From positions 59,371-123,370 of the forward strand of contig JADYZP010000052.1 of NCBI GenBank assembly GCA_020853025.1: a stretch of DNA of 64,000 nt. The letters are read 5' to 3'. The first letter of the stretch is position 1. Each line of letters opens with the position of its first letter. Both the position numbers and the translations under genes were made by a program. The notes beneath the pieces are model-generated. The model was not told the origin of the DNA. It searched no databases and was given only the letters and a program-made list of their open reading frames with translations. This document shows, one piece after another, positions 1-34,702 of this stretch. Source of the stretch: Burkholderiales bacterium (lineage in GTDB: Bacteria > Pseudomonadota > Gammaproteobacteria > Burkholderiales > Casimicrobiaceae).

Positions 1-397
1 CCAGGAATATCTCGACACCTATCGCGACACCTTCCACGGACAGGTGACCGCGCTCGGCTATGTGCGCGTGGCCACCTGCGCGTCCTGTCACGGTGCACAC
101 GAGGTACTGCCGGCGTCGAATCCGGCATCGAAGGTTTCGCCGCAGAACCGGCTCGCAACCTGCCAGACCTGCCACGCGGGTGCCACCGCCAACTTCGCGA
201 GCTTCGATCCGCACGCCAATCGCCATGACAAGGCCCGCAATCCGCTCTACTACTATGTGGCGCTGTTCATGGAGATCCTGCTCTGGGGCGTGTTCTCCTT
301 CTTCGGCATCCACACGTTGTTCTGGTTCTATCGTGAACTACGTGTCAAGTTCGGCGCTGGTCGAAAGTCCGCTGGCAGCGGCAGGGAGAAACACTGA
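1..397 (+). CDS. Membrane-anchored multiheme cytochrome c, 5'-truncated by the window edge
   Basis: Open from the window start; CXXCH motifs CASCH and CQTCH, then a C-terminal TM helix (YYYVALFMEILLWGVFSFFGIHTLFWFY). Confidence 0.75.
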   Translation, partial: QEYLDTYRDTFHGQVTALGYVRVATCASCHGAHEVLPASNPASKVSPQNRLATCQTCHAGATANFASFDPHANRHDKARNPLYYYVALFMEILLWGVFSFFGIHTLFWFYRELRVKFGAGRKSAGSGREKH

Positions 398-1278
398 TGG
401 CGAGCGCAACGGGCAATCCGGTGACGGCCACGGCGACGGCCACGACCGCGGGTGGCGGCACCGCGCAACGCTACTACCGCCGCTTCACGCCCGCTCAGCG
501 TGTGCTGCACGCGCTGCTGATGCTTTCCTTCCTCGGCTGCGCGCTGACCGGTCTGCCGTTGATTTTTGCTGACCGGCCGTGGGCCGCCGCTCTGGCGCGG
601 ACGCTCGGCGGCTTCGAAAGCGCCGGCGTCATCCATCGCATCTGCGCCTTCGTGATGATCGTCGTCTTCGTCACCCACGTCGTCGCGGTTTTCGCGCGCG
701 CGATCGCCAGCGGTCGCCTGATGGCCACACTATGGGGGCCCGACTCGATGGTGCCGCAGCCGCAGGACATCATCGACCTCTACCGCAACTTCAAGTGGTT
801 CATCGGCGCCGGACCACAGCCCAAGTTCGACCGCTGGACCTACTGGGAGAAATTCGACTACTGGGCGGTGTTCTGGGGGATGCTGATCATCGGCGGATCG
901 GGCCTGCTGCTCTGGTTCCCGGTGTTCTTCGCCAGGTTCCTTCCGGGCTGGGTGTTCAACATCGCCTCGCTGGTGCACGGCGAGGAAGCGCTGCTCGCCG
1001 TCGGCTTCATCTTCACTTTCCACTTCTTCAACGGCCACCTGCGACCGCAGAAATTCCCTATGGACACCGTCATCTTCACCGGCCGCATTTCCGAGCACGA
1101 ATTGCGCGAGGAGCGTGAAGTCGAGTACGAACGCATGGTCCGTGAGGGAACGCTCGCCGACCGCGAGACGACTCCGCCGTCCGAGGAAGCCAAGTGGTTC
1201 GGCTGGATCGTCGGCGGCGCAGCGCTCGTGCTCGGGATCATCGCCATCATCCTGATCGTTTCCAGCATCATCGGCTAG
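397..1278 (+). CDS. Di-heme cytochrome b (formate dehydrogenase gamma / b561-like) membrane subunit
   Basis: 293 aa, multiple TM helices with conserved His; starts at the stop of the upstream cytochrome gene. Confidence 0.75.
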   Translation: MASATGNPVTATATATTAGGGTAQRYYRRFTPAQRVLHALLMLSFLGCALTGLPLIFADRPWAAALARTLGGFESAGVIHRICAFVMIVVFVTHVVAVFARAIASGRLMATLWGPDSMVPQPQDIIDLYRNFKWFIGAGPQPKFDRWTYWEKFDYWAVFWGMLIIGGSGLLLWFPVFFARFLPGWVFNIASLVHGEEALLAVGFIFTFHFFNGHLRPQKFPMDTVIFTGRISEHELREEREVEYERMVREGTLADRETTPPSEEAKWFGWIVGGAALVLGIIAIILIVSSIIG

Positions 1279-1384
1279 TCGCTATACTGGCATCCGCCGC
1301 GGTCGGCACGGCCTCGATGGGTGTGCCAGCATCGGCAGGGTGTGTGCCAACGACAGCGCGGGAACGACAGACGAGGAAGCGCCG

Positions 1385-2731
1385 ATGAAGTTCACACTGG
1401 GCAAGAAGACGTTCATGCTGGGCGCGGCGACGACGATCATCGTCGGCGCCATTGCGCTCGTCGTTCTCGGCGCCGGCGGTATCGTCGCCTGGGAGTACAG
1501 CAACAGCGACGCCTTCTGCACCAATAACTGCCACGCGGTGCACCCCGAGGAGCCGCGTGCCCACGCGGTCTCCGTGCACGCGCGTGTTCACTGCGTCGAG
1601 TGCCACATGGGCCGGCTGCCGACGCTGCAGTTGATGGCGCTGAAAGCCGCACACTATCAGGAACTGCTCGGCATGATCATCGGCTACGAGCGTCCGCTGA
1701 CGGCGACCACGCTGCGTCCGGCACGCGATTCCTGCGAGAACTGCCACTGGCCATCGGTCAACCACGATGACAAGATCCGCACCAGGATCCAGTTCCAGCC
1801 CGACAAGGACAACACCGAGGTACGCACGAAGCTCATCTTGCACACCGGCAGCGGAGAAGCCCGCGAAAAGGCGACACGCGGCATTCACTGGCACATCGAG
1901 CAGAACGTCGAGTTCGTCTCCGACGACGTGCAGAGGCGAACGGTTCCCTGGGTGCGCATCACCGGCAACGATGGCAAGTCGCAGACCTACTTCGACGCAA
2001 CGAGCGAGATCGGGCGTGCCGAGATGGACCAGAGGCCCCGGCGCCGAATGGACTGCACCGACTGCCACAACGCGACCGGCCACCCGTTCCGCAATCCCGC
2101 CGACCGGATCGATGAGGCAATGGCGCAGGGGCGCATCGACCGCAGCATCCCGTCGATCAAAGCGCGCGCACTTGCGATCATCGAACGGGCCTCACCGCTG
2201 CACGGCCCGATGGAGGCGCAGATTTCGACGTTCAAGCAAATCATCGCCGACGCGGCGCCAAAGGGGGAATTGAAACCCGAGCAGAAAGCGGCCGAGGAAC
2301 AGTTTGCGAAAACGATGCTGGAGATTGTTTCGCTATCGGAATTCGAGGCCAAGGACTTTTCCTGGAAGTCCTTCCCGAATCACGTGGGGCACAGGGACTT
2401 CCCCGGCTGCTTCCGCTGCCACGACGGCAAGCATTTCAACGAAAAGGGCGAGGCGATCCGCCTCCAGTGCACGCTGTGCCACGATTTGCCGCAGGTCAGC
2501 GTCGACGGCACGCTGAAGACGGTGAACTCGACCGTGGCTCCGGGCCTCACACCGCCATCCAGCCACAACGAACCCAATTTCATGCATGACCACCGGACCA
2601 AGGTCGACGACAGCTGCAAGATGTGCCACGGTCCGATCAAGTGGGGAACCGAAGGTGGCAGCTTCTGTGCCAATCCGGCCTGTCATGGTCGCAACTGGCC
2701 GGAACTGAGTCTCGACAGCAAGCGGAACTGA
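1385..2731 (+). CDS. NapC/NirT-like N-anchored multiheme c-type cytochrome
   Basis: N-terminal TM, six CXXCH (CVECH, CENCH, CTDCH, CFRCH, CTLCH, CKMCH) plus CTNNCH and CANPACH; ATG at 1385 preferred over the ORF-track start. Confidence 0.8.
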   Translation: MKFTLGKKTFMLGAATTIIVGAIALVVLGAGGIVAWEYSNSDAFCTNNCHAVHPEEPRAHAVSVHARVHCVECHMGRLPTLQLMALKAAHYQELLGMIIGYERPLTATTLRPARDSCENCHWPSVNHDDKIRTRIQFQPDKDNTEVRTKLILHTGSGEAREKATRGIHWHIEQNVEFVSDDVQRRTVPWVRITGNDGKSQTYFDATSEIGRAEMDQRPRRRMDCTDCHNATGHPFRNPADRIDEAMAQGRIDRSIPSIKARALAIIERASPLHGPMEAQISTFKQIIADAAPKGELKPEQKAAEEQFAKTMLEIVSLSEFEAKDFSWKSFPNHVGHRDFPGCFRCHDGKHFNEKGEAIRLQCTLCHDLPQVSVDGTLKTVNSTVAPGLTPPSSHNEPNFMHDHRTKVDDSCKMCHGPIKWGTEGGSFCANPACHGRNWPELSLDSKRN

Positions 2732-15631: not shown

Positions 15632-15988
15632 CTATTTGCGGCGCGTCGTGGCGAACTCGCGCATCGCGATATGCATGTCCCAGGCGACCTGCAGGTGCAT
15701 CCAGAACACCGCGTCGTTGCCGAAGAACATGGCGAGCCGGACCGCGGTGTCGGGCGTGATCGCGCGCCGTCCCTTGATCAACTCGTTGACGCGCCGGCGC
15801 GAGATGCCGAGCGCCTGCGCCAGTTCGGTCTGGTTGATCGACAGCGGCCTCAAGTACCTCGATTCGAGGAATTCGCCGGGACGCGGCGGACGGCGCGTGG
15901 CGACCGCCGGCACTCGCCGACGAGCCGCCAAAGAGCGGTGCCCGTGGACGACTTTGCCGGCGACCGCCTGCCCGGGTCGCGCGTTCAC
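15632..15988 (-). CDS. HigA-family XRE-type antitoxin-like / HTH regulator, no HigB partner
   Basis: PGEFLESRYLRPLSINQTELAQALGISRRRVNELIKGRRAITPDTAVRLAMFFGNDAVFWMHLQVAWDMHIA is HigA-type; GTG at 15986-15988 overlaps the hupC TGA (GTGA). Confidence 0.82.
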   Translation of the reverse strand: MNARPGQAVAGKVVHGHRSLAARRRVPAVATRRPPRPGEFLESRYLRPLSINQTELAQALGISRRRVNELIKGRRAITPDTAVRLAMFFGNDAVFWMHLQVAWDMHIAMREFATTRRK

Positions 15989-16695
15989 GCCCTGGGCGCT
16001 CCCTTCCACGTCCGGATACCGCTGATCATCGTACCGACGACCGATTGGCCGCTCATGATGTCCTCGCGGAACACCATATAGACGTGAATGACCGCGAACA
16101 GCAGCAGGTACCACATCGTCAGGCGGTGCAGCGTGCGCACCATTTGCGGGTCGCCGAAAACGACGAAGACCCAGCCCATGATGTTCATCGGCCACGTGCC
16201 CCAGCCCCAGGCCTCGGCGTAGAGCGCGAGTCCGGTGATGATGATGAACAGCGAGCCCAGCGTGTACATCGCGAACATCGCGAGTTGCGCGAGCGGATTG
16301 TGTCCGACCCACCGCTCGGACTCCTTTTTCAGGAACAGGTAGTAGCCCAGCTGGCTGAACAGTCCGCGCCACCAGCTCAAATTCCATACCGGCGGCAGGA
16401 AGATCGCCCGCGACGAGTGGTTGCCGACGAATGCCCAGTACACCCGCACCGCAAAGGCGACAGCGAAGACCATCGCGGCGATGAAGTGGATCATCCGGAT
16501 GTAGCCGAAGAAGTAGTGGAATGTCGCCTCGCCGCCGATCGACGGCGGGGGGCGGCCGATCATGTAGCCGGTGCCCATCAGGAAGAGCATCGCCACGACC
16601 ATCACCCAGTGCCACAGGCGAACCGGCGCCTCGTAGACATAGACTGGCTCCAGCGGGCCGGCAAGCACCTGGCCGGAAACGGGATTGACTCTCAT
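15985..16695 (-). CDS. hupC: Ni/Fe-hydrogenase b-type cytochrome subunit HupC
   Basis: VYVYEAPVRLWHWVMVVAMLFLMGTGYMIG; follows the large subunit. Confidence 0.93.
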   Translation of the reverse strand: MRVNPVSGQVLAGPLEPVYVYEAPVRLWHWVMVVAMLFLMGTGYMIGRPPPSIGGEATFHYFFGYIRMIHFIAAMVFAVAFAVRVYWAFVGNHSSRAIFLPPVWNLSWWRGLFSQLGYYLFLKKESERWVGHNPLAQLAMFAMYTLGSLFIIITGLALYAEAWGWGTWPMNIMGWVFVVFGDPQMVRTLHRLTMWYLLLFAVIHVYMVFREDIMSGQSVVGTMISGIRTWKGAPRA

Positions 16696-16714
16696 CGCTT
16701 CGCTCCTCGTCGGA

Positions 16715-18508
16715 TCAGCGTACCTTCACCGCAACCAGTTCCTCGCCCTCCGGTGACATCACGTGCGTCGCGCAGGCGAGGCAGGGGTCGAAGCTGTGGA
16801 TGGTGCGCAGGATCTCCAGCGGCTGCTGCGGATTGACCATTGGCGTGTTCAGCAGTGCGGCTTCGTAGGGACCGATCTGGCCCTTGGCGTCGCGCGGGCT
16901 CGCGTTCCACGTCGTCGGCACCACGCACTGGTAGCTGTCGATCCGCGTGTTCTTGATCTTCACCCAGTGCGCGAGTGCGCCGCGGGGTGCCTCGCAAGAT
17001 CCGATACCCTTGGCCTCGGCCGGCCAGGTCGACGGCTCCCACAGATCGACGTTGGCCGTCGCGTAGTCGCCCGACTTGAGGTTGGTGATCAGCTGGTCGT
17101 AGAAGTAGCGCATCTTGTGCGCGGCCCACGAGCACTCGAGACCGCGGGCGGCGGTACGCCCGAGCGTGCTGAACAGCGCGGTCACCGGAACGTCGAGCGT
17201 CTTCAGCACCATGTTGAGCTGCTCGGTGACCTCCTTGTCGCCGCGGGCGAAGGCGACGACGTAGCGCGCGAGCGGGCCGACCTCGACCGGATGGCCCTTC
17301 CAGCGCGGGGCCTTGATCCAGGAGTACTTGGCGCTCTCGTCGAGATTCTCGATATTGGTGCGCGTTCCCTTGGTGCCGGGGCCAAGCACGAAGTGGGGGT
17401 CGGTGACACCGTCGAACGGATGCAGGCCCTTCGACTCGTCGCCCTGCTTGTACCAGGAGTGCGTCACCCATTCCTGCACCTGGTCGGGTGCCTTCAGATC
17501 GACGTCGTGGACGTTCTTCAGGTCGCCGCCGAGAATGACACCGGCCGGCAACAGCATGCTCTTGTTCGAGTAGTCGTTGGCAATATCCGGAAACTCGCCG
17601 TACGCCATCACGTTCTGGCCCGACAGCCCGCCGCCGATCTTCGCCCAGTCCTTGTAGAACGAGGCGATCGCCAGCAGGTCGGGAATGTAGACCTGGTCGA
17701 TGAACTCGATCGTACTGTCGATGATGCCGCTGATCATATTCAGCTGCGTCATGTTGATCGCGCCCACCGCCCCGGTATCGTTGAGATTGATCGAGCACGG
17801 TACGCCGCCGACCAGCCAGTTCGGGTGCGGGTTCTTGCCGCCGAAGATCGTTTGGATCTTGACGATCTCCTTCTGGAAGTCGAGCGCCTCCAGGTAGTGC
17901 GTCGTCGCCATCAGGTTCGCCTCGGGCGGCAGCCGGTACGCGGCACTGCCCCAATAGCCGTTGGCGAAGATCCCGAGCTGGCCGCTGCCGACGAACTTCT
18001 TCAGGCGGTTCTGTATTTCGCGAAAATACGCCGGCGAGCTGTTGCGCCACGGCGAGATGCTCTGCTGCAACTCCGACGTCTTCTTCGGATCGGCGTTCAG
18101 CGCCGACACGACGTCCACCCAGTCGAGCGCATGGAGGTGGTAGAAGTGGACGAGGTGATCCTGCGCATACTGCGTCGTAAGCATCAGATTGCGGATGATG
18201 TTCGCGTTCTTCGGGATCTTGATCCCGAGCGCGTCCTCGACCGCGCGTACCGAGGTGAGTGCGTGCGTGCCCGTGCACACGCCGCAGATACGCTCGACGA
18301 AGGCCCACGCATCCCGCGGATCGCGGCCCTTGAGGATGACTTCGAGCCCGCGCCACATCGTGCCGGTGGACACCGCATTGCGAATGACGTTGCTCTTGTC
18401 GACGTTGACCTCGATGCGCAGGTGGCCTTCGATGCGCGTGATCGGATCGACCACGATGCGCTGGCCGCTGTCGTCGAGGGTGAAGCCCTGGGTCTGGATG
18501 GTTGCCAT
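16715..18508 (-). CDS. hupL: Uptake [NiFe]-hydrogenase large subunit HupL
   Basis: [26 protein letters not shown]-terminal DPCLACATH followed by a cleavable [15 protein letters not shown] peptide. Confidence 0.97.
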
Positions 18509-18510
18509 GA

Positions 18511-19617
18511 TTATTTCTCCACCTCGGAAACGCGGTCGTTGCGTGTCTTGCTGCGCGCCTGCTTGATGGCGCTGACGGCAGCGTGTGCGGCAATGGCGGC
18601 GCCGGCGACGCCCACCGCGACCAGTCCGATCTGGTCGGCCGTGCCTTCGATACCCGACAGGCCCGGGGCGCGGATCGTCGTCAGGTGGTCGTAGAACGAT
18701 CCCCTATCCCAGAAGTCGTCCTCGGAGCAGCCGATGCAGCCGTGGCCGGACTGGATCGGGAACGACGTGCCCTCGTTCCAGCGCACCGTCGAGCACGCGT
18801 TATAGGTAACCGGCCCCTTGCAGCCGACCTTGTACAGGCAGTAGCCCATGCGCGCTCCAGCGTCGTCGAAATGCTCGACGAACTGGCCCGCATCGAAGTG
18901 CGGCCGCCGGTAGCACTTGTCATGAACGCGCTGGCTGTAGAACATCTTCGGGCGGCCCTGCGCATCCAAATCGGGCAGCCGGTCGAAAGTCAGCATGTAG
19001 GTGACGACGCCCGTCATCACCTCGGCGATCGGCGGACAGCCCGGGACCTTGATGATCGGCTTGTCGGTGATCACCTTGTGCACGGGTGTCGCCTTGGTCG
19101 GGTTCGGCTTCGCCGCCTGCACGCATCCCCATGACGCGCACGAGCCCCAGGAAATGATCGCCTTGGCGTCCTTCGCGACGTGCCGCAGTTTGTCGACGAA
19201 CGGCCTGCCTCCGGGAATGCAATAGATGCCGTCGTCGGCGAGCGGCGGGTTGCCCTCGACTGCGAGGATGTAGTTGCCCTTGTACTTCTTGATCGTGTCC
19301 TCGAGCGACTGCTCGGCCTGGTGGCCGGCGGCGGCCATCAGCGTGTCGTCGTAGTCGAGCGAGATCATCGACAGCACGACGTCCTTGGCGAGCGGGTGCG
19401 CCGAGCGGATGAATGATTCGGTGCAGCAGGTGCATTCGAGTCCGTGCAGCCAGATGACCGGTGTGCGTTGCTTGGTTTGCATCGCCTGCGCGATCTGCTG
19501 CGCGCCTGCCTCGCCCAGTCCCAGCGACGCCGCAGTCAGGCTGCAGAACTTCAGGAAGCTACGCCGCGAAATGCCTTGCCGACGCATCAAGGCGTAATAG
19601 GTATCGGTTTCGGTCAT
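18511..19617 (-). CDS. hupS: Uptake [NiFe]-hydrogenase small subunit HupS, Tat-exported
   Basis: Tat motif [49 protein letters not shown]. Confidence 0.97.
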
Positions 19618-19719
19618 GGAATCCTCCGGGAAGTCGCGTCGTGCGGAGGCACGGGCGGCGTTCATGGTTCATGCAACGAGGTAACGTCGTCATTTAGACC
19701 GCAATCCCGACGCCTCTGG

Positions 19720-22518: not shown

Positions 22519-22544
22519 CGCAAACCGCGCGCTCGCAACGATCG

Positions 22545-22587
22545 AAAAACCCGAGGGAGCGACCGCCGTTGCCGGCGGTCTCCCTCG
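22545..22587 (-). terminator. Rho-independent terminator of the porin-cytochrome operon
   Basis: Hairpin CGAGGGAGCGACCGCC/GGCGGTCTCCCTCG, followed on the minus strand by GGGTTTTTC. Confidence 0.75.
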
Positions 22588-22656: not shown

Positions 22657-25365
22657 CTACTTTTTCGACTCGCCCTTGACCTGCACCTCGACGCGGCGGT
22701 TCGGCTGCAGGCATTCGATGAGTTCCTTGAAGGCCTTCTGGTCGCACTGCACGACCGGCTGCTTCTCGCCCATGCCGATGGTCTCGATCTTTGTTTTGTC
22801 GACACCCCTGCTGACCAGATAGTCGCGCACCGAGTCCGCACGTCGCTCGGACAGGCGCTGGTTGTACTGTTCGGTGCCGATACGATCGGTGTGGCCGGTA
22901 ACCAGGACGACGTCGAGTTTCTGAATCTCGGGCAGCTTGCCGACGACCTGGCTGTCGATCGCCGCCTTGCCTTCGGGCTTCAGCACCGCCTTGTCGAAGT
23001 CGAACAGCACCTTCGAGTCGAGCGTGATCCGCTGCACCTGCGGCGTCGGTGCGGGCGCCGGTTGCGGTGCCGGACGCGGTGGCGGTGCTTGTGCCACCGC
23101 CGGAGCCGACTTCGGCGCTTCCGCCATCTTCATCTGCGCGATCGGCAACTGCGGCGCGTCGAACTTGTAGGTCGCCAGCAGCCAGAAGATGTTCTGATGG
23201 CCATCGGTGAACGCGTTGTAGCCGTTGACGTAGCTCAGGTTCGGGGCGCTGGTGGCCGGGTAAGGCAGCGTGTATTGAGCGCCGTCGTAGGCGATGCCGT
23301 CCTGGCTGTACTTCTGGTAGGCATAGCCGCCGGTGAACGACCAATGTTTGTCGTACGCGTAGACCGCCTTCAGGTTGAACGACTGCTGCGTCGAATTATC
23401 GAAGTTCCCGATGTTCAGCGGGTTGCCGATATTGTCCTGCGCAGCGAACGTTGCCGAACCGTCGTTGTTCACGTACAGGTACGACGCCTTCAGCATCAGC
23501 GACTGCATCGCCGGCCAGTCGACGCCGACGCCGATCATCCAGGTCTGGTCCTTGGTCTGCGAATTCCAGTTGTAGGAGCCGGAGTTCGGCGCGCTCGACG
23601 GGCTGAAGCAGTTCGGATTCGCCGTCGTACACCATCCGGGAGGCGGGCTCGGGCCGTTCGAAACAGTGCCGATATAGCGGTGGCCCGACGGATACTTGAC
23701 CTCCTCCCAGCTGCCGAAGGCGTTGAGCATCAGCTTGTCGGCGGCGCCCCAGTTGCCGGAGACAAAGTAGCCCTGGCGATCGGCGCTGGTGCGACCGAAG
23801 GTGACGTCGTCGTAGTCCTGATTGACCCAGTTGCCCTCGAAGGAGAGCCCCAGCAGCGGCAGCGGATTCCAATCGAGCGTCAGCTTGATCTGGTTCGCCG
23901 TCATGTCCTGCATGTCGAACGACGACATATAGCGGAGCAGGTAGTTCGGGTCGTTGGGCGACACGCCCGCATTGCTCCAGTTGAGCGTCGCGTCACGCTT
24001 GATGTACTGGTACTTGAGCCGTGCGGACAGCGTGTCGAGCATCGTGTTCTTGTATTCCGCCCACAGCTTGTTCCAGTGCATCGCGTCGTAGTCGGGACGC
24101 GCCTGGTCGACGTCGTTGTAGTCCCAGCCAAAGCCCAGCCGCTGCTGGCGTGCGAAGCGCCACCAGACGTCGGCGCCGACGTTGCTCTTCGTGTAGTTGA
24201 AATGCTCGTTGTCGCAGTTCCCTGACACGAAGGTGTTCGGAGTGAGCCCGGGAACGCTGCCGCAGCCGAGACCTGAGGCCAGCGGCTGCGCCGGCGCTTC
24301 GCCAAACTCCACGAGGTCGGATTTGCCGTCGAGCTTGGTCCAGTAGTAGTAGACGCGAGTGTCGACGTTCGTCACCGGTCTTGCGGTCCAACCGAGCGCG
24401 AACGACTGGTTCACGTTCTCGCCGTTGAACGTATTCTGGTTGGGCAGTGTCGGCGCAAAGATCGGACCCGTATTGAGCGCGGATTGGCCGAGGGCGAAGT
24501 CGCTCGTGGTCTTGGCCCAGGTATAGCGGGCCGACAGCACCGACTTCCACGGCAGGTCGCGGTAATTACCGGTGATGGTGAACTTGTTGAACGTATTGTC
24601 GGGCGCCAGGTACGTCGTATCGAGCAGGTTGCCCCCGAAGAACGGATTGGTCCACTGCAGCGTAGGGTCCGAATTCTCGAACTTGCTGTAGTCCCAGCGC
24701 AGCGCCAGCGTCGCCTTGGTCGTCTGATAGCCGCCTTCCACGCCCCAGTTGCTGGTCGTCGTATTCGTCGGAAATGCGAGATCGACGTAGCCGGTGCCCG
24801 GGTTGGTGCCGTTGGCAGCCGAGCCCACCTTGGTCCCACTGAACGTCACCTGGTTGCCGTCAGCTCGAAAATACCAGGGGCTCGACTTCTGCCATTCGAA
24901 ATAGCCACCGGCGTCACCCCGCTTGTAGCCCAGGTCGAAGCTGTTCCAGTTGCCTGGGTCGGTCTGCGGGAAGGTGGCCGTCAGCAGATTGCCGCCACTG
25001 CCGTTGTACGGAGTCAACGCTCCGTAGGCGAAGGTGTGCGGAATATCGTTGAGGTAGGCACCCGCCTTGAAAATATCGTACATGCCGCCGCGCAGGAACA
25101 TGAACTGGTCGCTGCGGCCGAAGTTCTCGCCGTAGCCGTAGAACCAGGTCGTAGTGTTGCGGCCGCGCAGGTAGACACTCGACAGCCCGCCGTTGCCAAG
25201 ATCCTGGTACAAGTCGAGCTGCGACGCGTCTTTGGAGTTCGTGTTGTTGTAGATGCCGCCGAGCGTCGCCGAGCCTTCGACTCGCATCGGGTCTTCGCTC
25301 TGGGCAAGCGCCGGCGCGGCTGCGAACAGGCTGGCGATCAGGGTGGAAAGCAACTTCTTGCTCAT
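22657..25365 (-). CDS. MtrB/PioB-like outer-membrane beta-barrel fused to a C-terminal OmpA peptidoglycan-binding domain
   Basis: Signal peptide, about 730-residue aromatic beta-strand-rich barrel, Pro-rich linker (APPPRPAPQPAPAPTPQ), then OmpA domain (VLFDFDKAVLKPEGKAAID...TGHTDRIGTEQYNQRLSERRADSV...LQPNRRVEV); directly downstream of a decaheme cytochrome gene. Confidence 0.85.
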   Translation of the reverse strand: MSKKLLSTLIASLFAAAPALAQSEDPMRVEGSATLGGIYNNTNSKDASQLDLYQDLGNGGLSSVYLRGRNTTTWFYGYGENFGRSDQFMFLRGGMYDIFKAGAYLNDIPHTFAYGALTPYNGSGGNLLTATFPQTDPGNWNSFDLGYKRGDAGGYFEWQKSSPWYFRADGNQVTFSGTKVGSAANGTNPGTGYVDLAFPTNTTTSNWGVEGGYQTTKATLALRWDYSKFENSDPTLQWTNPFFGGNLLDTTYLAPDNTFNKFTITGNYRDLPWKSVLSARYTWAKTTSDFALGQSALNTGPIFAPTLPNQNTFNGENVNQSFALGWTARPVTNVDTRVYYYWTKLDGKSDLVEFGEAPAQPLASGLGCGSVPGLTPNTFVSGNCDNEHFNYTKSNVGADVWWRFARQQRLGFGWDYNDVDQARPDYDAMHWNKLWAEYKNTMLDTLSARLKYQYIKRDATLNWSNAGVSPNDPNYLLRYMSSFDMQDMTANQIKLTLDWNPLPLLGLSFEGNWVNQDYDDVTFGRTSADRQGYFVSGNWGAADKLMLNAFGSWEEVKYPSGHRYIGTVSNGPSPPPGWCTTANPNCFSPSSAPNSGSYNWNSQTKDQTWMIGVGVDWPAMQSLMLKASYLYVNNDGSATFAAQDNIGNPLNIGNFDNSTQQSFNLKAVYAYDKHWSFTGGYAYQKYSQDGIAYDGAQYTLPYPATSAPNLSYVNGYNAFTDGHQNIFWLLATYKFDAPQLPIAQMKMAEAPKSAPAVAQAPPPRPAPQPAPAPTPQVQRITLDSKVLFDFDKAVLKPEGKAAIDSQVVGKLPEIQKLDVVLVTGHTDRIGTEQYNQRLSERRADSVRDYLVSRGVDKTKIETIGMGEKQPVVQCDQKAFKELIECLQPNRRVEVQVKGESKK

Positions 25366-25380
25366 GTTTGTCTCCCGACC

Positions 25381-26361
25381 TTAGCGCGTTAGGTACTTGC
25401 CGCGGTTGCCCGGCGCGTTCGAGCCGTGGATCGCGTTGTGGCAGTTGAGGCACGCGCGTGTCACCAGCCGGTTATTCACGGCCGGATTGGGCTGACTGGT
25501 CTTGCCGACGCACGCCGGGTTGGTGTCGCCGGGCGCGCAGAGCCAGCCCCCCTGCCCGGCGTAGACCGTGCCGGGGTGCCGCGACCAGTCGTGGCAGTCC
25601 TGGCACAGATTCGGCGCATTCTCGTTCAGTAGCTTGGCGTGCACCGAACCGTGCGGGTTGTGGCAGGTCACGCAGTTTTCCTCGACCGGCGGATGATTGA
25701 ATACGTACGGGCCGCGTTTGTCCGCATGACACGTGTAGCACTGGTCGTTGATCGTCGGCTGCTTGACCATCGCCGGCGACAGCGCGCCGTGCGGGTTGTG
25801 GCAGTCGCTGCACTTGACCTTGCCTTCAATGATCGGGTGATGCGACGGCTTGAAGATCGCCGCGCGGATCTGCTGGTGGCAGTTGCCGCAGCCTTCCCAC
25901 TGGCCGGGCCGGAACGTCGTCACGAACTTGTTGATCGACGGCGCCAGCGCCTTGCCGTGGATGCTGTGACAGTTGCTGCAGGTCACGTCGTTCAACTGGT
26001 GCTTGCCCGCGGCCCAGAATGCAAGGTCGCGGTTGCCGGAGTGGCACGTCAAGCATACGGCGGTGCGCGTTTCCGCCGTGCCGGCCTTGCCGAAGGGATC
26101 GGCAGGCTTGACCTTGTTCGGGTCTTTGATGTGCGCAGACGCATCGCCGTGACACGATTGGCACATGCCGCCGTCGGCGTCGTTCTTGGCGCCGTGCGCC
26201 GTCAGGTCAGTCGATTTCCACTGTGCCTCGTGGCATTTCGCACACACGGGCGCCGTCTGCGCTGCTGCGGCGGGCTTGGGTTGAGCTTGCGCCGGCATCG
26301 CCGATATCCATATGAACGCGGCCACGACGCCAGTCATGGTGAGGATGGACTTGATTCGCAT
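25381..26361 (-). CDS. Periplasmic decaheme c-type cytochrome, MtrA/PioA/DmsE family
   Basis: Signal peptide and exactly ten CXXCH motifs; 15 bp upstream of the MtrB-like gene. Confidence 0.93.
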   Translation of the reverse strand: MRIKSILTMTGVVAAFIWISAMPAQAQPKPAAAAQTAPVCAKCHEAQWKSTDLTAHGAKNDADGGMCQSCHGDASAHIKDPNKVKPADPFGKAGTAETRTAVCLTCHSGNRDLAFWAAGKHQLNDVTCSNCHSIHGKALAPSINKFVTTFRPGQWEGCGNCHQQIRAAIFKPSHHPIIEGKVKCSDCHNPHGALSPAMVKQPTINDQCYTCHADKRGPYVFNHPPVEENCVTCHNPHGSVHAKLLNENAPNLCQDCHDWSRHPGTVYAGQGGWLCAPGDTNPACVGKTSQPNPAVNNRLVTRACLNCHNAIHGSNAPGNRGKYLTR

Positions 26362-26579
26362 GGACGCCCCCTGTTGTTGCATTGTCATCGAACCGCTGGC
26401 GGATTGCCGTTAGCGCCCGCGGCCGGTTTCACGCCTGCCGGTGATTCGTTTCAATCCTGGTCCGCATCACCCGGCTTTGCCATGCTCAAGACTCCCTCGC
26501 CTCTTGCGGTGGACGGCTTACCCGCCACAAGGATCGGTGCCATTGGATAACTTTCTACGCGCCGCGCACGGGCGAAACT

Positions 26580-27067: not shown

Positions 27068-28138
27068 TCAGCCAGAAACCGCGGATGCACCCAGCACGGC
27101 AAACGCCGGCGTGGCGAAGTCGCGAAATGTGCCTTCGCCTTCGCGCCGGATGAAATACGCGGCGACGCCGCGCTCGACCGCCAGCGCGTAGCCGCGCTCG
27201 GAGCCGAGCACGATCAGCGCCGTCGCCATCGCGTCGGCGCGCGCGCAGGACGCATCGACCACGCTGACCGACGCCAGTCCGTGGCGGATCGGTGCTCCGG
27301 TCGCCGGGTCGATCTCGTGGCAGTAGCGCGTGCCGCCTCGCTCGAAGTAGATCCGGTAGTCGCCGGAAGTCGCCATCGCCAGGCCGCTCATCGGCACGAT
27401 CCGGTGCGCGCGCCGCGGCACCGCGTCGGGTCGTTCGACGGCGATCTGCCACGGGCGCCCTGCGGCGTTGAGTCCGCGCGTGCGCACCTCCCCGCCGGTT
27501 TCGACCATGTAGTCGCCGATCCCCAGTTCGTCAAGAGCGCGAGCCGCCAGGTCGACGCCGTGGCCCTTGGCGATGCCAGACAGGTCGGCACGGAGGTCCG
27601 GGCTCTCCTTGGTTATCGTCATGCCGCGCGGATCCAGCGCGAGCATCCTCCAGCCGACGCGAGCTTCCCGCACACGACGCAGCGCTTCGGCGACCACGTG
27701 CTGCGTCTTGTCCCGGCCGAAGCCCCAGGCGTCGACCATCGGTGCCACGGTGACGTCGAAGGCGCCTCCCGTCGCCTCGCTGACGTCGCGCGCCAGCGCA
27801 AAGACCGAGAACGTGTCCTCCGACAATGCGAACGGCGCCGTCCGCACATGGCGGTTGAGGCGCGACAGTTCAGAGTCGTCGCGGTAGTGCGACATCCGGT
27901 CGACGACGCCAGCAAGCGCGCCGTCGACGGCGCGACGCGCGGCGGCCTGCGCCGCGTCGCTCAAGCCTCGCCCGGCGATCTTCACCGTGTAGGTCGAGCC
28001 CATCGTCTCGCCGCCGAAGCCGAGCGCCGCGGCGGTGTCGCGCGGACCTGGCGACCCATTGCCGCATCCGGTGACGAGGGCGGCCGCGCCCAGTCCTTGC
28101 AGCAACTGGCGACGGCGGGGGGAAAGCAGCGTATCCAT
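27068..28138 (-). CDS. apbE: FAD:protein FMN transferase ApbE
   Basis: MGSTYTVKIAG, DLSGIAKGHGVD, ETGGEVRTRG motifs; lipoprotein-like N-terminus. Confidence 0.93.
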   Translation of the reverse strand: MDTLLSPRRRQLLQGLGAAALVTGCGNGSPGPRDTAAALGFGGETMGSTYTVKIAGRGLSDAAQAAARRAVDGALAGVVDRMSHYRDDSELSRLNRHVRTAPFALSEDTFSVFALARDVSEATGGAFDVTVAPMVDAWGFGRDKTQHVVAEALRRVREARVGWRMLALDPRGMTITKESPDLRADLSGIAKGHGVDLAARALDELGIGDYMVETGGEVRTRGLNAAGRPWQIAVERPDAVPRRAHRIVPMSGLAMATSGDYRIYFERGGTRYCHEIDPATGAPIRHGLASVSVVDASCARADAMATALIVLGSERGYALAVERGVAAYFIRREGEGTFRDFATPAFAVLGASAVSG

Positions 28139-28187
28139 CAGCAGGCTCCGAAGTTGTGCGCAGGCATTGAATGAGCGACCGTCCGCA

Positions 28188-28646
28188 TCATCCGGAAGCA
28201 CCGGTCGCGGCGTCGCGCACCGCCGCCTCGAACCTGCCTTCACCGTGCTCGATCATCTGCCGCACCAGGTCGCCGATCGAGACCAGGCCGTGGACACGCG
28301 GTCCGTCGATCACCAGCAGGTGGCGATGCCGGTTGAGCGTCATCAGCGACAGCGCCGCCTCGACGGTCGTACCCGGCGACACGAAGCGCACGTCACGCGT
28401 CATCACCAGCGAGATCGCGGTCGTCTGCGGATCGCGACCCGCGTGCACGACGCGCGTCAGCAGGTCACGCTCGGTGAAGATACCGCTGACCAGGCCGTCC
28501 TCGTTCATGACCAGCACCGCGCCGATCCTGCGCTCGGCCATGACGGCGACCGCCTCGGCGACCATCGCGCCTGCCTGCACCGAGATCAGTTCGTCGCTGT
28601 CCTTGCGCTCCACCACCGTTGCGACCGTATCCTGCATGTCGTGCAC
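28188..28646 (-). CDS. Tandem CBS-domain protein
   Basis: Two CBS motifs (VMAERRIGAVLVMNEDGLVSGIFTERDLL; LMTLNRHRHLLVIDGPRVHGLVSIGDLV). Confidence 0.9.
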   Translation of the reverse strand: MHDMQDTVATVVERKDSDELISVQAGAMVAEAVAVMAERRIGAVLVMNEDGLVSGIFTERDLLTRVVHAGRDPQTTAISLVMTRDVRFVSPGTTVEAALSLMTLNRHRHLLVIDGPRVHGLVSIGDLVRQMIEHGEGRFEAAVRDAATGASG

Positions 28647-28673
28647 TCCTTTAAGGCGTCGCCGCGTTGCGCG

Positions 28674-29903
28674 CTACAGGCCGAAGTCGTCGAACATGAT
28701 GCTCTCTCGCTCGACACCCAGATCCATCAGCATCCTGATCACCGCCTTGTTCATCACATCGGGGCCGCACAGGTAGTACTCAATGTCCTCGGGCGCCGGA
28801 TGCGCGTCCAGGTAGTGCTTGCGCAGCGCCTGGTGGCGCACGAGGCCGACCGGCCCCGTCCAGTTGTCCTCGGGTCGCGGCTCGGAGAGCACCAGGTGCC
28901 ATTCGAAGTTCGCATGCTCGGCCTGCAGGCGGTCGAAATCCTCGATGTAGAACGCCTCGGAGAGGTTGCGCGCCGAATACCAGAACGTCATCTTGCGCTT
29001 GCTGTGCAGTCGCAGAAGCTGGTCGAAGATGTGCGAACGCATCGGCGCCATGCCGGCGCCCGCGGCGACGAAACACATCTCGTTGTCGGTGTCGCGGGCA
29101 AAAAACTCGCCGTAGGGCCCGGACACGGTGACCGAGTCGCCGGTCTTCAGGCTGAACAACCACGAGCTCATCTTGCCCGGCGGGATATCCTCGCGGTACT
29201 CCGGCGCGAAAACGATGCGGATGGTGAACAGCAGCGTGCCTTTTTCCAGCGGGTAGCTCGCCAGCGAATAAGCGCGTTCGACCGGCTCGTCGACCACCGA
29301 GCGGAAGCGCCACAGATCAAAGCGGTCCCACTCTTCGCGAAACTCGGGGTCGATGTCGAAGTCGCGGAATGACAAGGCATGCGGCGGGCATTCGACCTGC
29401 ACGTAGCCGCCGGCACGAAACGGCACGTCCTCCCCTTCGGGAAGCGCCAGCTTCAGTTCCTTGATGAAGGTCGACACGTTGCGGTTCGACAGCACCGTGC
29501 ACTGCCACTTGCGCACGCTGAAAATCTCGGAAGGAAGCTCGATCTTCATGTCGCGCTTGACCTTGACCTGGCAGGCGAGCCTGTAGCCGCGCTTCGCCTC
29601 GCCCGGCGAGACGAATCCGGTCTCGGTCGGCAGCAGCGTGCCTCCGCCCTCGCGGACGACGACTTCGCAGGCGCCGCAGGTGCCGCGCCCGCCGCAGCCG
29701 GACGGGATGTAGATCTTCCGGCTCGCCAGCGCGTTGAGCAGCGTGGCACCCGCGGCGACCCTCAGCGCCTTGTCCGGGTCCTCGTTGACGACGATGCTGA
29801 CCTCGCCGCTGGCGACGAGCTTGCGGCGCGCACCGAGCAGCATGGCCACCAGCACCAGCACCACCGCGGTGAAGGTCACGACGCCGGTGACGATACTGAG
29901 CAT
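28674..29903 (-). CDS. nqrF: Na+-translocating NADH:quinone reductase subunit F
   Basis: 2Fe-2[17 protein letters not shown]-binding reductase domain, C-terminus MFDDFG. Confidence 0.95.
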
Positions 29904-30517
29904 TAGATCTGGATCCCGGAGAACATCATGAAGGCGAGCGACATCAGCCCGGTCGCGATGAAGGTGATACCGAGCCCACGCAGGCCGCCGGGAACGTTCG
30001 AGTACGTCATCCGCTCGCGAATGGCGGCGAGCGCGACCAGCGCGATCGCGAATCCCAGCCCCGAGCCGAAGCCGAAGACGACGCTCTCGGTGAAGGTGTA
30101 GTCGCGCTCCTGCATGAACAGCGACCCGCCGAGGATGACGCAATTCACCGCGATCAGCGGCAGGAATACGCCCAAGGTCGAATACAGTCCCGGCGCGAAG
30201 CGGTCGACCATCATCTCGACCACCTGCACGGCGGCAGCGATGGTCGCAATGAAGACGATGAAGGCGAGAAAGTTCAAGTTGACGCCGGCCAGCGCGGGGG
30301 ACAGCCAGCCGAGTGCGCCGTCGCTCAGCAGGTAGCGCAGCAGCAGGTTGTTGAGCGGCACCGTCAGCGTCTGCACGAAGACGACGGCGATGCCGAGGCC
30401 GAGCGCGGTCTCGACCTTCTTCGAGCAAGCCAGGTACGAGCACATGCCCAGGAAATAGACGAGCGCCATGTTCTCGAGGAATATCGAGCGCACGAGAAGG
30501 TTGGCGTAGTGTTCCAT
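29903..30517 (-). CDS. nqrE: Na+-NQR subunit E
   Basis: 204 aa polytopic, [16 protein letters not shown]; order in operon. Confidence 0.95.
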
Positions 30518-30526
30518 CGTCGCGCC

Positions 30527-31171
30527 TCAATCCTTTTCCTGCAGCTCGGGCTTCCACTCGCGCAGCGCCCAGATCAGGAGGCCGACGATGAACAACGCCG
30601 AGGGTGCCAGCAGCATGAGGCCGTTGCCCTCGTACCAGCCACCGTCGCTGACGAGCGGCAGCACGGTGAAGCCAAGTACACGGCCCGCACCGGTCAGCTC
30701 GCGGACGAAGGCGACCAGCAGCAGCACCAGCGCATAGCCCAGCCCGTTGCCGACGCCGTCGAGGAACGACGGCCACGGCGGGTTCTGCATCGCGAAACCC
30801 TCGGCGCGGCCCATCACGATGCAGTTGGTGATGATCAGACCGACGAATACCGACAGCTCGAGCGAGAGCTCGAACAGATAGGCCTTCAGGAACTGGTCGA
30901 CCATGATCACCAGCGACGCGATGATCGCGAGCTGGACGATGATGCGGATGCTGCCCGGCGTGTAGTTGCGCACCAGGCTGACGGCGAGATTGGCCGCGGC
31001 GGCGACCAGGATGACGGCGGCGCCCATCACCAGCGCCTTGTCGATGCGTGTCGTCACCGCCAATGCCGAACAGATGCCGAGCACCTGCACGGCGATCGGG
31101 TTGTTGACCAGGATCGGCGTCAGCAGCACGCTGCGCGCCCGTGGCGGAAGCCATCTGTCGAGGACGCTCAA
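30527..31171 (-). CDS. nqrD: Na+-NQR subunit D
   Basis: [38 protein letters not shown] start overlapping the nqrC stop. Confidence 0.93.
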
Positions 31172-31968
31172 GATGTGTCTCCTGCGCGAAAGCGTGCGAG
31201 ATAGCGGCCGTAGCCTTCGTCGGAGAGCCAGAATCCGACCAGACGCGATACGCCGTTGCTGGTGATCGTCGCGCCGGATATGGCGTCGATCCGGTGCGGA
31301 TCGGTCGCCGGCGGACCGACGGCACCCTTGACCACCGTCAGCTTCGGCTCCCAGCTGGCGTCGAAGGCCTGGCGACCAACCCACAGCGCCTGCCATTTCG
31401 GATTGCTGATTTCGCTGCCCAGGCCCGGAGTTTCCTTCTGGTCGTAGAAGGTGATGCCGCGAACGGTCCTGCCGTCACGGTCGAGCGCAAGGAAGCCGTA
31501 CATCATGCCCCACATGCCGATGCCTTCGATCGGCAGCACCACCTGCTCGACGGGTGCGTCCTTGCCGCCGGCACGGACCAGGTAGACGGCGCCGTAGGTG
31601 GGCAGGCGCGAGATCTTGGCGGCGTTCGGCGGTGCCGGGCGGCTCAACGCCGGGTCGTTGCGTACGCGGCGCTGGTCATAGGTCTCGACGTCGATCCTGC
31701 CTTCGGCCATGTACTCGCCGGAGGCCAGGTCGACCAGCCGGACCTCGATGTGGCGATCGAAGATCTTGCGCATTTCGGCGCCGGTGGGCGCTTCGTCGGG
31801 CCGCAGCAACCCGGCTGCGAGCAGCACGTTCTTCTGCCGGAACAGCCGCTGGTTCTCCTCCTGCCGCGATTGCAGTCCGACCGCGGATGCGGCCACCAGC
31901 AGCGCGCAGACGACACTGACAATGGCTGCGAAGCCGATCGTGTAGCGGGTCGAGTTGACGTCAGGCAC
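31168..31968 (-). CDS. nqrC: Na+-NQR subunit C
   Basis: FMN-attachment motif [11 protein letters not shown]; ~266 aa. Confidence 0.95.
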
Positions 31969-33187
31969 GGCGGCTCATCCGGCGCCGGATGTTGGCGCGG
32001 ATCATCGGATAGTCGATCAGCGGCGCCATCACGTTCATGAACAGGATCACCAGCATCATCGCCTCCGGATACGCCGGATTGACCGCGCGTATCAGCACGA
32101 CCAGGATGCCGATGCCGATACCGAAGATCCACTTGCCTCGATCGGTGAACGGCGAGGTCACCGGGTCGGTCGCCATGAACACGGTACCAAAGGCCCAGCC
32201 ACCGAGCACCATGTGCCACCAGAACGGCATGCCGAAATAGGGATTGGTCGCCGAGCCGATCAGGTTGAACGCGCCGGACATCGCGACGGTGCCGAGCGCC
32301 ACGCCAGCCATCGTCCGCCAGGAGCCGATGCCGGTGGCGATCAGCACCCCGGCGCCGATCAGGCAGGCAAGCGCCGAGGTCTCGCCCATCGACCCCGGTT
32401 CGAGTCCGACGAAGGCGTTCCACCACGACAGGTCGAGCTTGGCGAAGGGCAGGCCGGCGTGCCGCAATTGCGCGAGCAGCGTCGCTCCGGAGAAGCCGTC
32501 GATCGCGTGCGCCGGGTCGACCGCTGTCCATACCTTGTCGCCAGAGATCGCCGCCGGGTAGGCGAAAAAGAGGAATGCGCGCGCGGCCAGCGCCGGATTG
32601 ACGAAGTTCATCCCGGTGCCGCCAAAGACTTCCTTCGCCAGCACGACGCCGAAGCTGATGCCCAGCGCCGCCTGCCACAGCGGCGTCGTCGGCGGCAGGA
32701 TCAGCGGAAACAGGATTCCAGTGACAAAGAAGCCTTCGTTGACCTCGACGCGACGGACGATCGCGAACAGCAGCTCCCACGACAGCCCGACGGCCATGGT
32801 CACGATGTACAACGGCAGGAAATACAGCGCGCCGTGAATCGTGCAGGCGACGATGCTCTGCGGCGAATAGCCGACGCCGAGCGCGCGCAGCACGTCGTGC
32901 CGCCAGCCATCCTGCGTCGCCGCCTTCGCCACGTCGAGCGCGAGATTGGCCTGCAGCCCGGTGTTGTACATCGCCATGAACACGCAGGGCAGCGCGGCGA
33001 TGACGACCAGCATCATCATCCGCTTCAGGTCCAGGGCATCACGGACGTGCGCGCCGCCGGCGGTCACCGCTGCCGGCGTGTAGAAAAACGTGTCCGCCGC
33101 CTCCCACAGCGGATACAGGCGTTCAAAACGACCGCCCTTCTCGAAATGACGGCCGACACGGTCGAGCATGGCGCGGAAGGCACGCAC
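31961..33187 (-). CDS. nqrB: Na+-NQR subunit B
   Basis: Flavinylation motif GFSGATLL, polytopic; GTG start overlapping the nqrA stop. Confidence 0.93.
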   Translation of the reverse strand: MRAFRAMLDRVGRHFEKGGRFERLYPLWEAADTFFYTPAAVTAGGAHVRDALDLKRMMMLVVIAALPCVFMAMYNTGLQANLALDVAKAATQDGWRHDVLRALGVGYSPQSIVACTIHGALYFLPLYIVTMAVGLSWELLFAIVRRVEVNEGFFVTGILFPLILPPTTPLWQAALGISFGVVLAKEVFGGTGMNFVNPALAARAFLFFAYPAAISGDKVWTAVDPAHAIDGFSGATLLAQLRHAGLPFAKLDLSWWNAFVGLEPGSMGETSALACLIGAGVLIATGIGSWRTMAGVALGTVAMSGAFNLIGSATNPYFGMPFWWHMVLGGWAFGTVFMATDPVTSPFTDRGKWIFGIGIGILVVLIRAVNPAYPEAMMLVILFMNVMAPLIDYPMIRANIRRRMSRRA

Positions 33188-34554
33188 TAGACCTGCTCCT
33201 TCTCGATGCGCTCGAGCGCCTGCCGCAGGAGCGGGCCGTATTCGACCTTGCCCGGGCACACGAAGGTGCACAAGGCGAGGTCCTCCTCGTCCAGCTCCAG
33301 CGCGCCCAGCTCGGTGGCGCGCTGATCGTCACCCATCAGCAGCGCCCGCAACAGAAACGTCGGCATCACGTCGAGCGGCATCACGCGCTCGTAAGCACCG
33401 AGCGGCACCATCGCCCGTACGCCACCGTGGGTCGTTGTCGTCAGCGGCAGCGCAGACTTGCGCCGCAGCGCGCCGAGCACCACATTGAATACCGAGAACT
33501 TGTCGCGGCCCGGCGCAATCCAGCCGAAGAGTTCGCGTTGGTCGCCTTCGGGAACGACCGCCACCTGCAGGTGATAGCGGCCGAGATAGCCGGTCTCCGC
33601 GCCGCTGGCGGTGCGGCCATCGAGTGCTGAGCCCGAGATGACCCGTTGCCTGCCGGGCTCGATTTCTCCCGCCACCAGCGCGTCCAGCGCCGCGCCCATG
33701 CGCACCCGCAGGTGGCGCGGGCGGCGCGCGCCTGGGCCCGCCAGCGTGATCACGCGTTCGACGTCGAGCGTTCCGGTCGTCAGCAGGCGGCCGATCGCTG
33801 CCACGTCCTGGTAGCCGATGTGCCAGGCGACGCGATCCGCGGCGGCCGGCGCCAGCACTTCGATGTGCACACCCGGCGTTCCGGCCGGATGCGGTCCCGC
33901 GAACTGCGCGGCGACCACACGTTCGAGTTCGGGCACGGCGATGCCGGCACCGGCGGCCATGCACACATAGGTGTTTCCCGTAGTCAATTTTGCAAGCGCC
34001 TCGATTCCCTCCAGGAAATCTGCGCTGCGTTTCGCGAGCACGGCATCGACGGCCGGCGCGTGCGGGCGGGTGTCCATCGCAGTGACGAAAATGGCGTGCG
34101 GCGACGAGTCCGGCGCCGGCACATGCGAAAAGGGTCGCGTGCGCAGCGCCGTCCACAGTCCCGATTCGACCAGCAGCGCGCGGACCGCGTCGGCGGACAG
34201 CGCGGCCACCGGCGCACCGGTGTACGAAGCGAAGGCAAGCTGCGCCTGCGGGCCATCGTCCGCCGCGACGGCGACGACCACCGACGTCAGCATGCGCCGC
34301 GCACCGCGGTGAATCGCGCTCACCGTGCCGGCGGCGGGTGACGTGAAGCGCAGACCGGAACCCTTCTTGTCGTCGAAGAGCACGGATCCGCGCAATACGC
34401 GGTCGCCGACCTCCACGCGCAGGCTCGGCTTCAGCCCGATGTAATCGGCGCCGAGCAGCGCGACCGATTCCGGCCGCGGCGTGGCGTCAACGACGGGCAG
34501 CGGTGCCCCGGCCAGTGGAATGTCGAGTCCCTTGGTGACCTGATGGACCGACAC
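33187..34554 (-). CDS. nqrA: Na+-NQR subunit A
   Basis: VTKGLDIPLAGAP, GLKPSLRVEVGDRVLRG; first gene of nqr; GTG start. Confidence 0.94.
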   Translation of the reverse strand: MSVHQVTKGLDIPLAGAPLPVVDATPRPESVALLGADYIGLKPSLRVEVGDRVLRGSVLFDDKKGSGLRFTSPAAGTVSAIHRGARRMLTSVVVAVAADDGPQAQLAFASYTGAPVAALSADAVRALLVESGLWTALRTRPFSHVPAPDSSPHAIFVTAMDTRPHAPAVDAVLAKRSADFLEGIEALAKLTTGNTYVCMAAGAGIAVPELERVVAAQFAGPHPAGTPGVHIEVLAPAAADRVAWHIGYQDVAAIGRLLTTGTLDVERVITLAGPGARRPRHLRVRMGAALDALVAGEIEPGRQRVISGSALDGRTASGAETGYLGRYHLQVAVVPEGDQRELFGWIAPGRDKFSVFNVVLGALRRKSALPLTTTTHGGVRAMVPLGAYERVMPLDVMPTFLLRALLMGDDQRATELGALELDEEDLALCTFVCPGKVEYGPLLRQALERIEKEQV

Positions 34555-34702
34555 CGCGCAACCTCCCTCTCGTCCGATGACATCCTCCCGCGACACCCGG
34601 CACTCCTACCCGCAGGCCGGCGCACGGTCGCCTGTTTTGCAGGGCAGCTTAACGGGCCGGCCGCCGGAGAATGTTGATCGAGGGCAAAGCCGGCGCAGGC
34701 CT

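Follow-up and report, generated by a model that had tools for sequence, protein, structure and literature searches.

The way in which electrons pass the periplasm and its peptidoglycan on their way to outer-membrane conduits is not settled. Solved MtrB is a barrel of 26 strands, and heme A1 of MtrA lies about 20 Å inside the periplasm (PMC7198977). PioAB is described as a decaheme-barrel pair with no extracellular cytochrome (PMC6831781). Attachment to the cell wall has been described for another class of proteins, and in Acinetobacter baumannii OmpA an Asp and an Arg bind diaminopimelate (PMC5974059). Here we analyse a 64,000-nucleotide stretch of DNA (the window) in which a decaheme cytochrome gene is followed by a gene that joins both kinds of protein. 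The features of this locus are:

25381-26388, minus strand: decaheme c-type cytochrome, MtrA/DmsE/MtoA-like, gene 1 of the two-gene unit (CXXCH count, TIGR03508, 6r2q_A)
22657-25365, minus strand: MtrB/PioB barrel-OmpA fusion gene, 902 aa (ORF and Pfam profiles)
25300-25365, minus strand: N-terminal signal peptide MSKKLLSTLIASLFAAAPALAQ (from the sequence, cleavage site by eye; low-confidence N-terminal helix in the model)
23161-25281, minus strand: 26-strand beta-barrel, residues 29-735 (PF11854, AlphaFold2, Foldseek)
23029-23160, minus strand: Pro/Ala-rich linker of 44 aa, residues 736-779, predicted disordered (pLDDT)
22660-23028, minus strand: OmpA-like peptidoglycan-binding domain, residues 780-902, with D827 and R842 (PF00691, alignment)
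22541-22586, minus strand: intrinsic terminator 3' of the barrel gene, a GC hairpin of -28.2 kcal/mol and then a T run

A decaheme cytochrome and an MtrB/PioB-type barrel form an apparent two-gene unit

A first-pass annotation of the window had proposed a 902-aa frame at these coordinates, preceded by a decaheme gene of the MtrA kind, and both proposals hold. The frame lies on the minus strand in the interior of the contig, starts with ATG and, on inspection, is unbroken, with no internal stop. The upstream gene carries 10 CXXCH motifs, passes the curated cut-off of TIGR03508 (232 bits against 192, E 6.5e-69) and matches the solved MtrA chain 6r2q_A (E 2.8e-52). It ends 15 bp before the barrel gene. 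A ribosome-binding-like stretch lies 5' of the barrel gene and the strong terminator 3' of it, so that the two genes appear to form one unit. The fused gene is also preceded by a decaheme gene in two other genomes (G061 and G002, see below).

Both profile and fold assign the barrel to the MtrB/PioB type. Residues 66-694 match Pfam MtrB_PioB (PF11854) with E 2.2e-64 and 218.6 bits, against a gathering score of 23. The stricter NCBI model for MtrB/PioB, TIGR03509, gives 175 bits, under its curated 240, and the protein is therefore a divergent member of PF11854 outside the NCBI subfamily. An AlphaFold2 model built with 18 relatives (mean pLDDT 70.7) has about 26 strands over residues 29-735 by hand count. 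Compared with the PDB by Foldseek, this model is closest to MtrB (6r2q_B, E 1.3e-38, TM 0.85 by target length), the next-best matches being TonB-dependent receptors at E 4e-10 or worse. An unrelated porin, which the annotation had named as one outcome that would overturn it, is ruled out by the profile together with the match to 6r2q_B.

The linker and the tail also conform to the earlier description, with the Pro-rich segment and the quoted OmpA motifs present as written. AlphaFold2 gives pLDDT below 50 at residues 737-778, and the linker measures 38-52 aa across the four fusions described below. The annotation had suggested that the tether could fix the inter-membrane distance for periplasmic electron transfer; a linker predicted to be disordered would limit this distance rather than set it. 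As judged from its sequence, what follows is, as had been claimed, a complete OmpA C-terminal domain, and both predicted diaminopimelate-binding residues are intact. Pfam OmpA (PF00691) matches residues 787-878 (E 1.7e-21, 76.8 bits against a gathering score of 27.2, profile positions 1-92 of 98), AlphaFold2 folds the tail as an OmpA-like alpha/beta domain, and the tail aligns along its length with solved OmpA domains. In this alignment D827 and R842 are the equivalents of the diaminopimelate-binding Asp and Arg, an assignment based on the conserved motif HTD..G...YN..LS..R, and both are unchanged in all four fusions.

Among the genomes searched, the fusion is confined to one family and occurs in two conduit lineages

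The PF11854 profile was run against the 64 available genomes of the window's family and against sampled genomes of its order (399), its class (369) and its phylum (399), for a running count of 1,293 genomes, and other phyla were covered through named relatives. The 1,293 genomes gave about 150 matches above the cut-off, fragments included; matches whose frame left room for a 160-aa tail were retrieved and checked for OmpA. This survey of domain architectures, which the first-pass annotation had suggested, shows a fusion that is real but restricted to four genomes: the window's own, G002 (Betaproteobacteria 4_1_Oct_SF_Bin16), G061 (uncultured beta proteobacterium Ja1_bin-0608) and G029, all in the window's family and spread over three genera. 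The copy in G029 is weaker evidence than the others, since it sits at the end of a contig and a frame change divides it. A fusion widespread in MtrB is ruled out by the presence of OmpA in just these four genomes among the long-frame matches tested, and two initial candidates, G035 and G015, turned out to be unfused. Several MtrB_PioB proteins (L027 in G025:C26, and L029-L035) have unusually long frames, of up to 1058 aa, with no OmpA domain. The C-terminus coincides with the final barrel strand in 16 named unfused relatives, Acidobacteria among them, with two exceptions that run on by five residues (DMANR) and by one. Close relatives do without the tail, and a conduit can therefore dispense with it.

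The barrel tree places the window's protein and that of G029 inside a group of unfused conduits, and those of G061 and G002 on a branch of their own. A single clade of fused barrels was rejected (p-AU 0.009), and the decahemes of the fused genes give the same picture (single clade rejected with p 0.023, G029 left out); both p values assume a group named in advance, and some of the branches are long. The OmpA tails show a different pattern: those from the window, G029 and G061 cluster at 95/94, with stand-alone OmpAs elsewhere in the tree, and a single clade holding all four tails was not rejected. Between the window and G061 the barrels are 35% identical and the tails 79%, a difference of which slow OmpA evolution explains part. 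The window's tail is 55-74% identical to its best stand-alone OmpA match in each family member, against roughly 41-53% for stand-alone OmpAs from other families of the order. Given fused conduits in two lineages and tails resembling the family's own OmpA, the tail was probably gained more than once or moved between lineages; on the simplest account it was gained inside the family at least twice, or once with a later transfer to the second barrel lineage. One old fusion followed by many losses is disfavoured, both by the rejection of single fused clades for barrels and decahemes and by the greater closeness of the tails to the family's OmpA than to those of the order's other families. The stand-alone OmpA proteins of the family (L040:3729-4493, L008-L021) have a short N-terminal part followed by a Pro/Ala linker, apparently with no eight-strand barrel, and resemble the fusion tail.

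Hydrogenase genes and possible electron partners

Further genes of interest are found around the conduit:

15985-19665, minus strand: [NiFe] hydrogenase hyaA-hyaB-hyaC-like genes of the Hya (hydrogenase-1) kind, same strand as the conduit
18511-19665, minus strand: hydrogenase small subunit
16715-18508, minus strand: hydrogenase large subunit
15985-16695, minus strand: hydrogenase cytochrome b
L079:1584-5346 and G015:C1:26832-28622: Hya-type genes near other conduits of the clade, which has them by fused and unfused members (the window's set included)
2-2731, plus strand, continuing to the left in L109:6131-10102: row of 11-heme, b561-type and octaheme genes

The small subunit contains a CTCCTES stretch, which we take to be a feature of oxygen-tolerant hydrogenases and regard as a lead. 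Hydrogenase genes lie directly upstream of the decaheme gene in G061; in G015 about 10 kb separates them from the conduit, a stretch that holds the same cNMP-binding and SRPBCC neighbours. A close hydrogenase is found in 5 of the 7 family genomes that have this conduit clade and in 16 of all 64 family genomes (hypergeometric p 0.009; with one hydrogenase-rich genus set aside, a choice made post hoc, p = 5e-5). Because G015, whose conduit is unfused, has the hydrogenase too, the link belongs to the conduit clade and not to the tail, and a hydrogenase tied to the fusion itself is ruled out. At the Hya loci listed above, a conserved short gene follows the hydrogenase genes; judged by eye, it resembles a gene for a HigA-type antitoxin or an XRE regulator.

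The fused barrel is the only PF11854 barrel in the window's genome, which is 94% complete, encodes RuBisCO and gave no TIGR03507 match for MtrC/OmcA. Its sole NapC/NirT-type match is the octaheme, NapC/NrfH-like protein encoded at the window's left edge, in a row with a b561-type membrane protein and an 11-heme cytochrome, and we regard this octaheme protein as a candidate inner-membrane partner of the conduit. Upstream of the conduit and on its strand there are apbE and NQR/RNF-type subunit genes (window 27068-34596, minus strand). The fused gene of G029 overlaps at its end with a gene for a four-heme class I (c4-like) cytochrome (L024:2870-4315, minus strand), whose product is a possible periplasmic partner.

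A probable wall-tethered conduit and its alternatives

We consider it probable that the gene pair encodes a peptidoglycan-tethered outer-membrane electron conduit of the MtrAB/MtoAB type. The ten-heme cytochrome would sit inside the 26-strand barrel and electrons would cross the outer membrane through it, while from the last barrel strand the flexible Pro/Ala linker would lead to an OmpA domain bound to diaminopimelate in the peptidoglycan. So held, the conduit would neither drift nor be shed in vesicles, and its periplasmic heme end would stay close to the peptidoglycan or at it, in the path of periplasmic carriers, with a possible benefit for electron transfer. A lithoautotroph taking up electrons through the conduit would fit the lack of an MtrC match, the RuBisCO and the Hya-type hydrogenase; the same gene content would also fit the opposite flow, in which electrons from H2 are disposed of through the conduit. 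The family and fold of the barrel, its decaheme partner, the intact OmpA domain, the restriction to one family, the two lineages and the hydrogenase synteny are computed results. The fullest version of the proposal, a wall-tethered conduit linked to Hya, with at least two origins in one betaproteobacterial family, whose tether improves the hand-over of electrons across the periplasm, is tentative, and we would sooner doubt it than adopt it.

OmpA-type domains are common in envelope proteins, and the tail may therefore be there for the envelope and not for electron transfer. It could be a general staple between outer membrane and wall, the barrel, which was in the membrane already, having been recruited as a further anchor, with electron transfer unaffected by the tether; we take this as a serious possibility, somewhat short of an even chance. 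The resemblance of the tail to the family's stand-alone OmpAs speaks for it, as do the long disordered linker, which would hold no rigid distance, and the influence of OmpA-family anchors on vesiculation and periplasmic shape (PMC7947798). However, the window's genome already encodes a stand-alone OmpA-domain protein (254-aa frame), leaving no obvious gap to fill, and the tail is found on the one PF11854 barrel of that genome and on two separate conduit lineages.

We think it improbable that the tail chiefly helps the barrel to fold or to be retained, for instance against loss in vesicles, with no peptidoglycan binding in the cell: although the case for binding is one of sequence, the diaminopimelate-binding residues and the motif around them are unchanged in every fusion and match solved OmpA domains. 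We see similarly little chance that the conduit serves a DmsEF-type surface respiratory enzyme and not minerals, H2 or electrodes. The NCBI name of the decaheme family, 'DmsE', points that way, but the family also covers MtrA and MtoA, no molybdoenzyme was seen adjoining the conduit, and several of the genomes have hydrogenase genes nearby. Finally, an assembly or gene-calling artefact, a concern of the first-pass annotation in a group where metagenome-derived drafts are common, is hardly conceivable for an unbroken frame in a contig interior whose architecture recurs in three other assemblies.

Comparison with known systems

The first-pass annotation knew of no description of this architecture, and we found no report in the open literature of MtrB, PioB or a porin-cytochrome fused to OmpA, subscription papers being mostly outside the search. 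The papers examined that name OmpA do so in other connections. An MtrB/PioB barrel joined to OmpA thus appears to be undescribed so far. Published surveys could have missed it, since a large survey of mtrCAB discarded hits with additional domains (PMC8805035). If the gene pair is a tethered conduit, as we read it, nature provides one whose wall anchor can be taken off and whose near relatives have none, so that the effects of position and tethering can be tested directly. In engineered cells, the architecture may also be of use as a part that fixes conduits in place.

Shewanella MtrCAB (6R2Q), whose MtrAB part is the best fold match, shares the decaheme and the 26-strand barrel; there, however, MtrB stops at the barrel and MtrC is present, whereas none was found in the window's genome. 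MtoAB of Sideroxydans and PioAB of Rhodopseudomonas are likewise decaheme-barrel pairs without an extracellular cytochrome, but an OmpA tail has not been reported for them, and PioA has a long N-terminal extension that the window's decaheme lacks. The C-terminal OmpA domain is shared with OmpA, OprF and Pal-type peptidoglycan-binding proteins, which are held in the membrane by a small barrel or a lipid anchor and not by an electron-conduit barrel. Cyc2, a fused cytochrome-porin, is also an outer-membrane electron-transfer protein that arose by domain fusion (PMC5566968), but in Cyc2 it is a heme domain that is fused to the porin, whereas here the conduit barrel carries a putative wall anchor.
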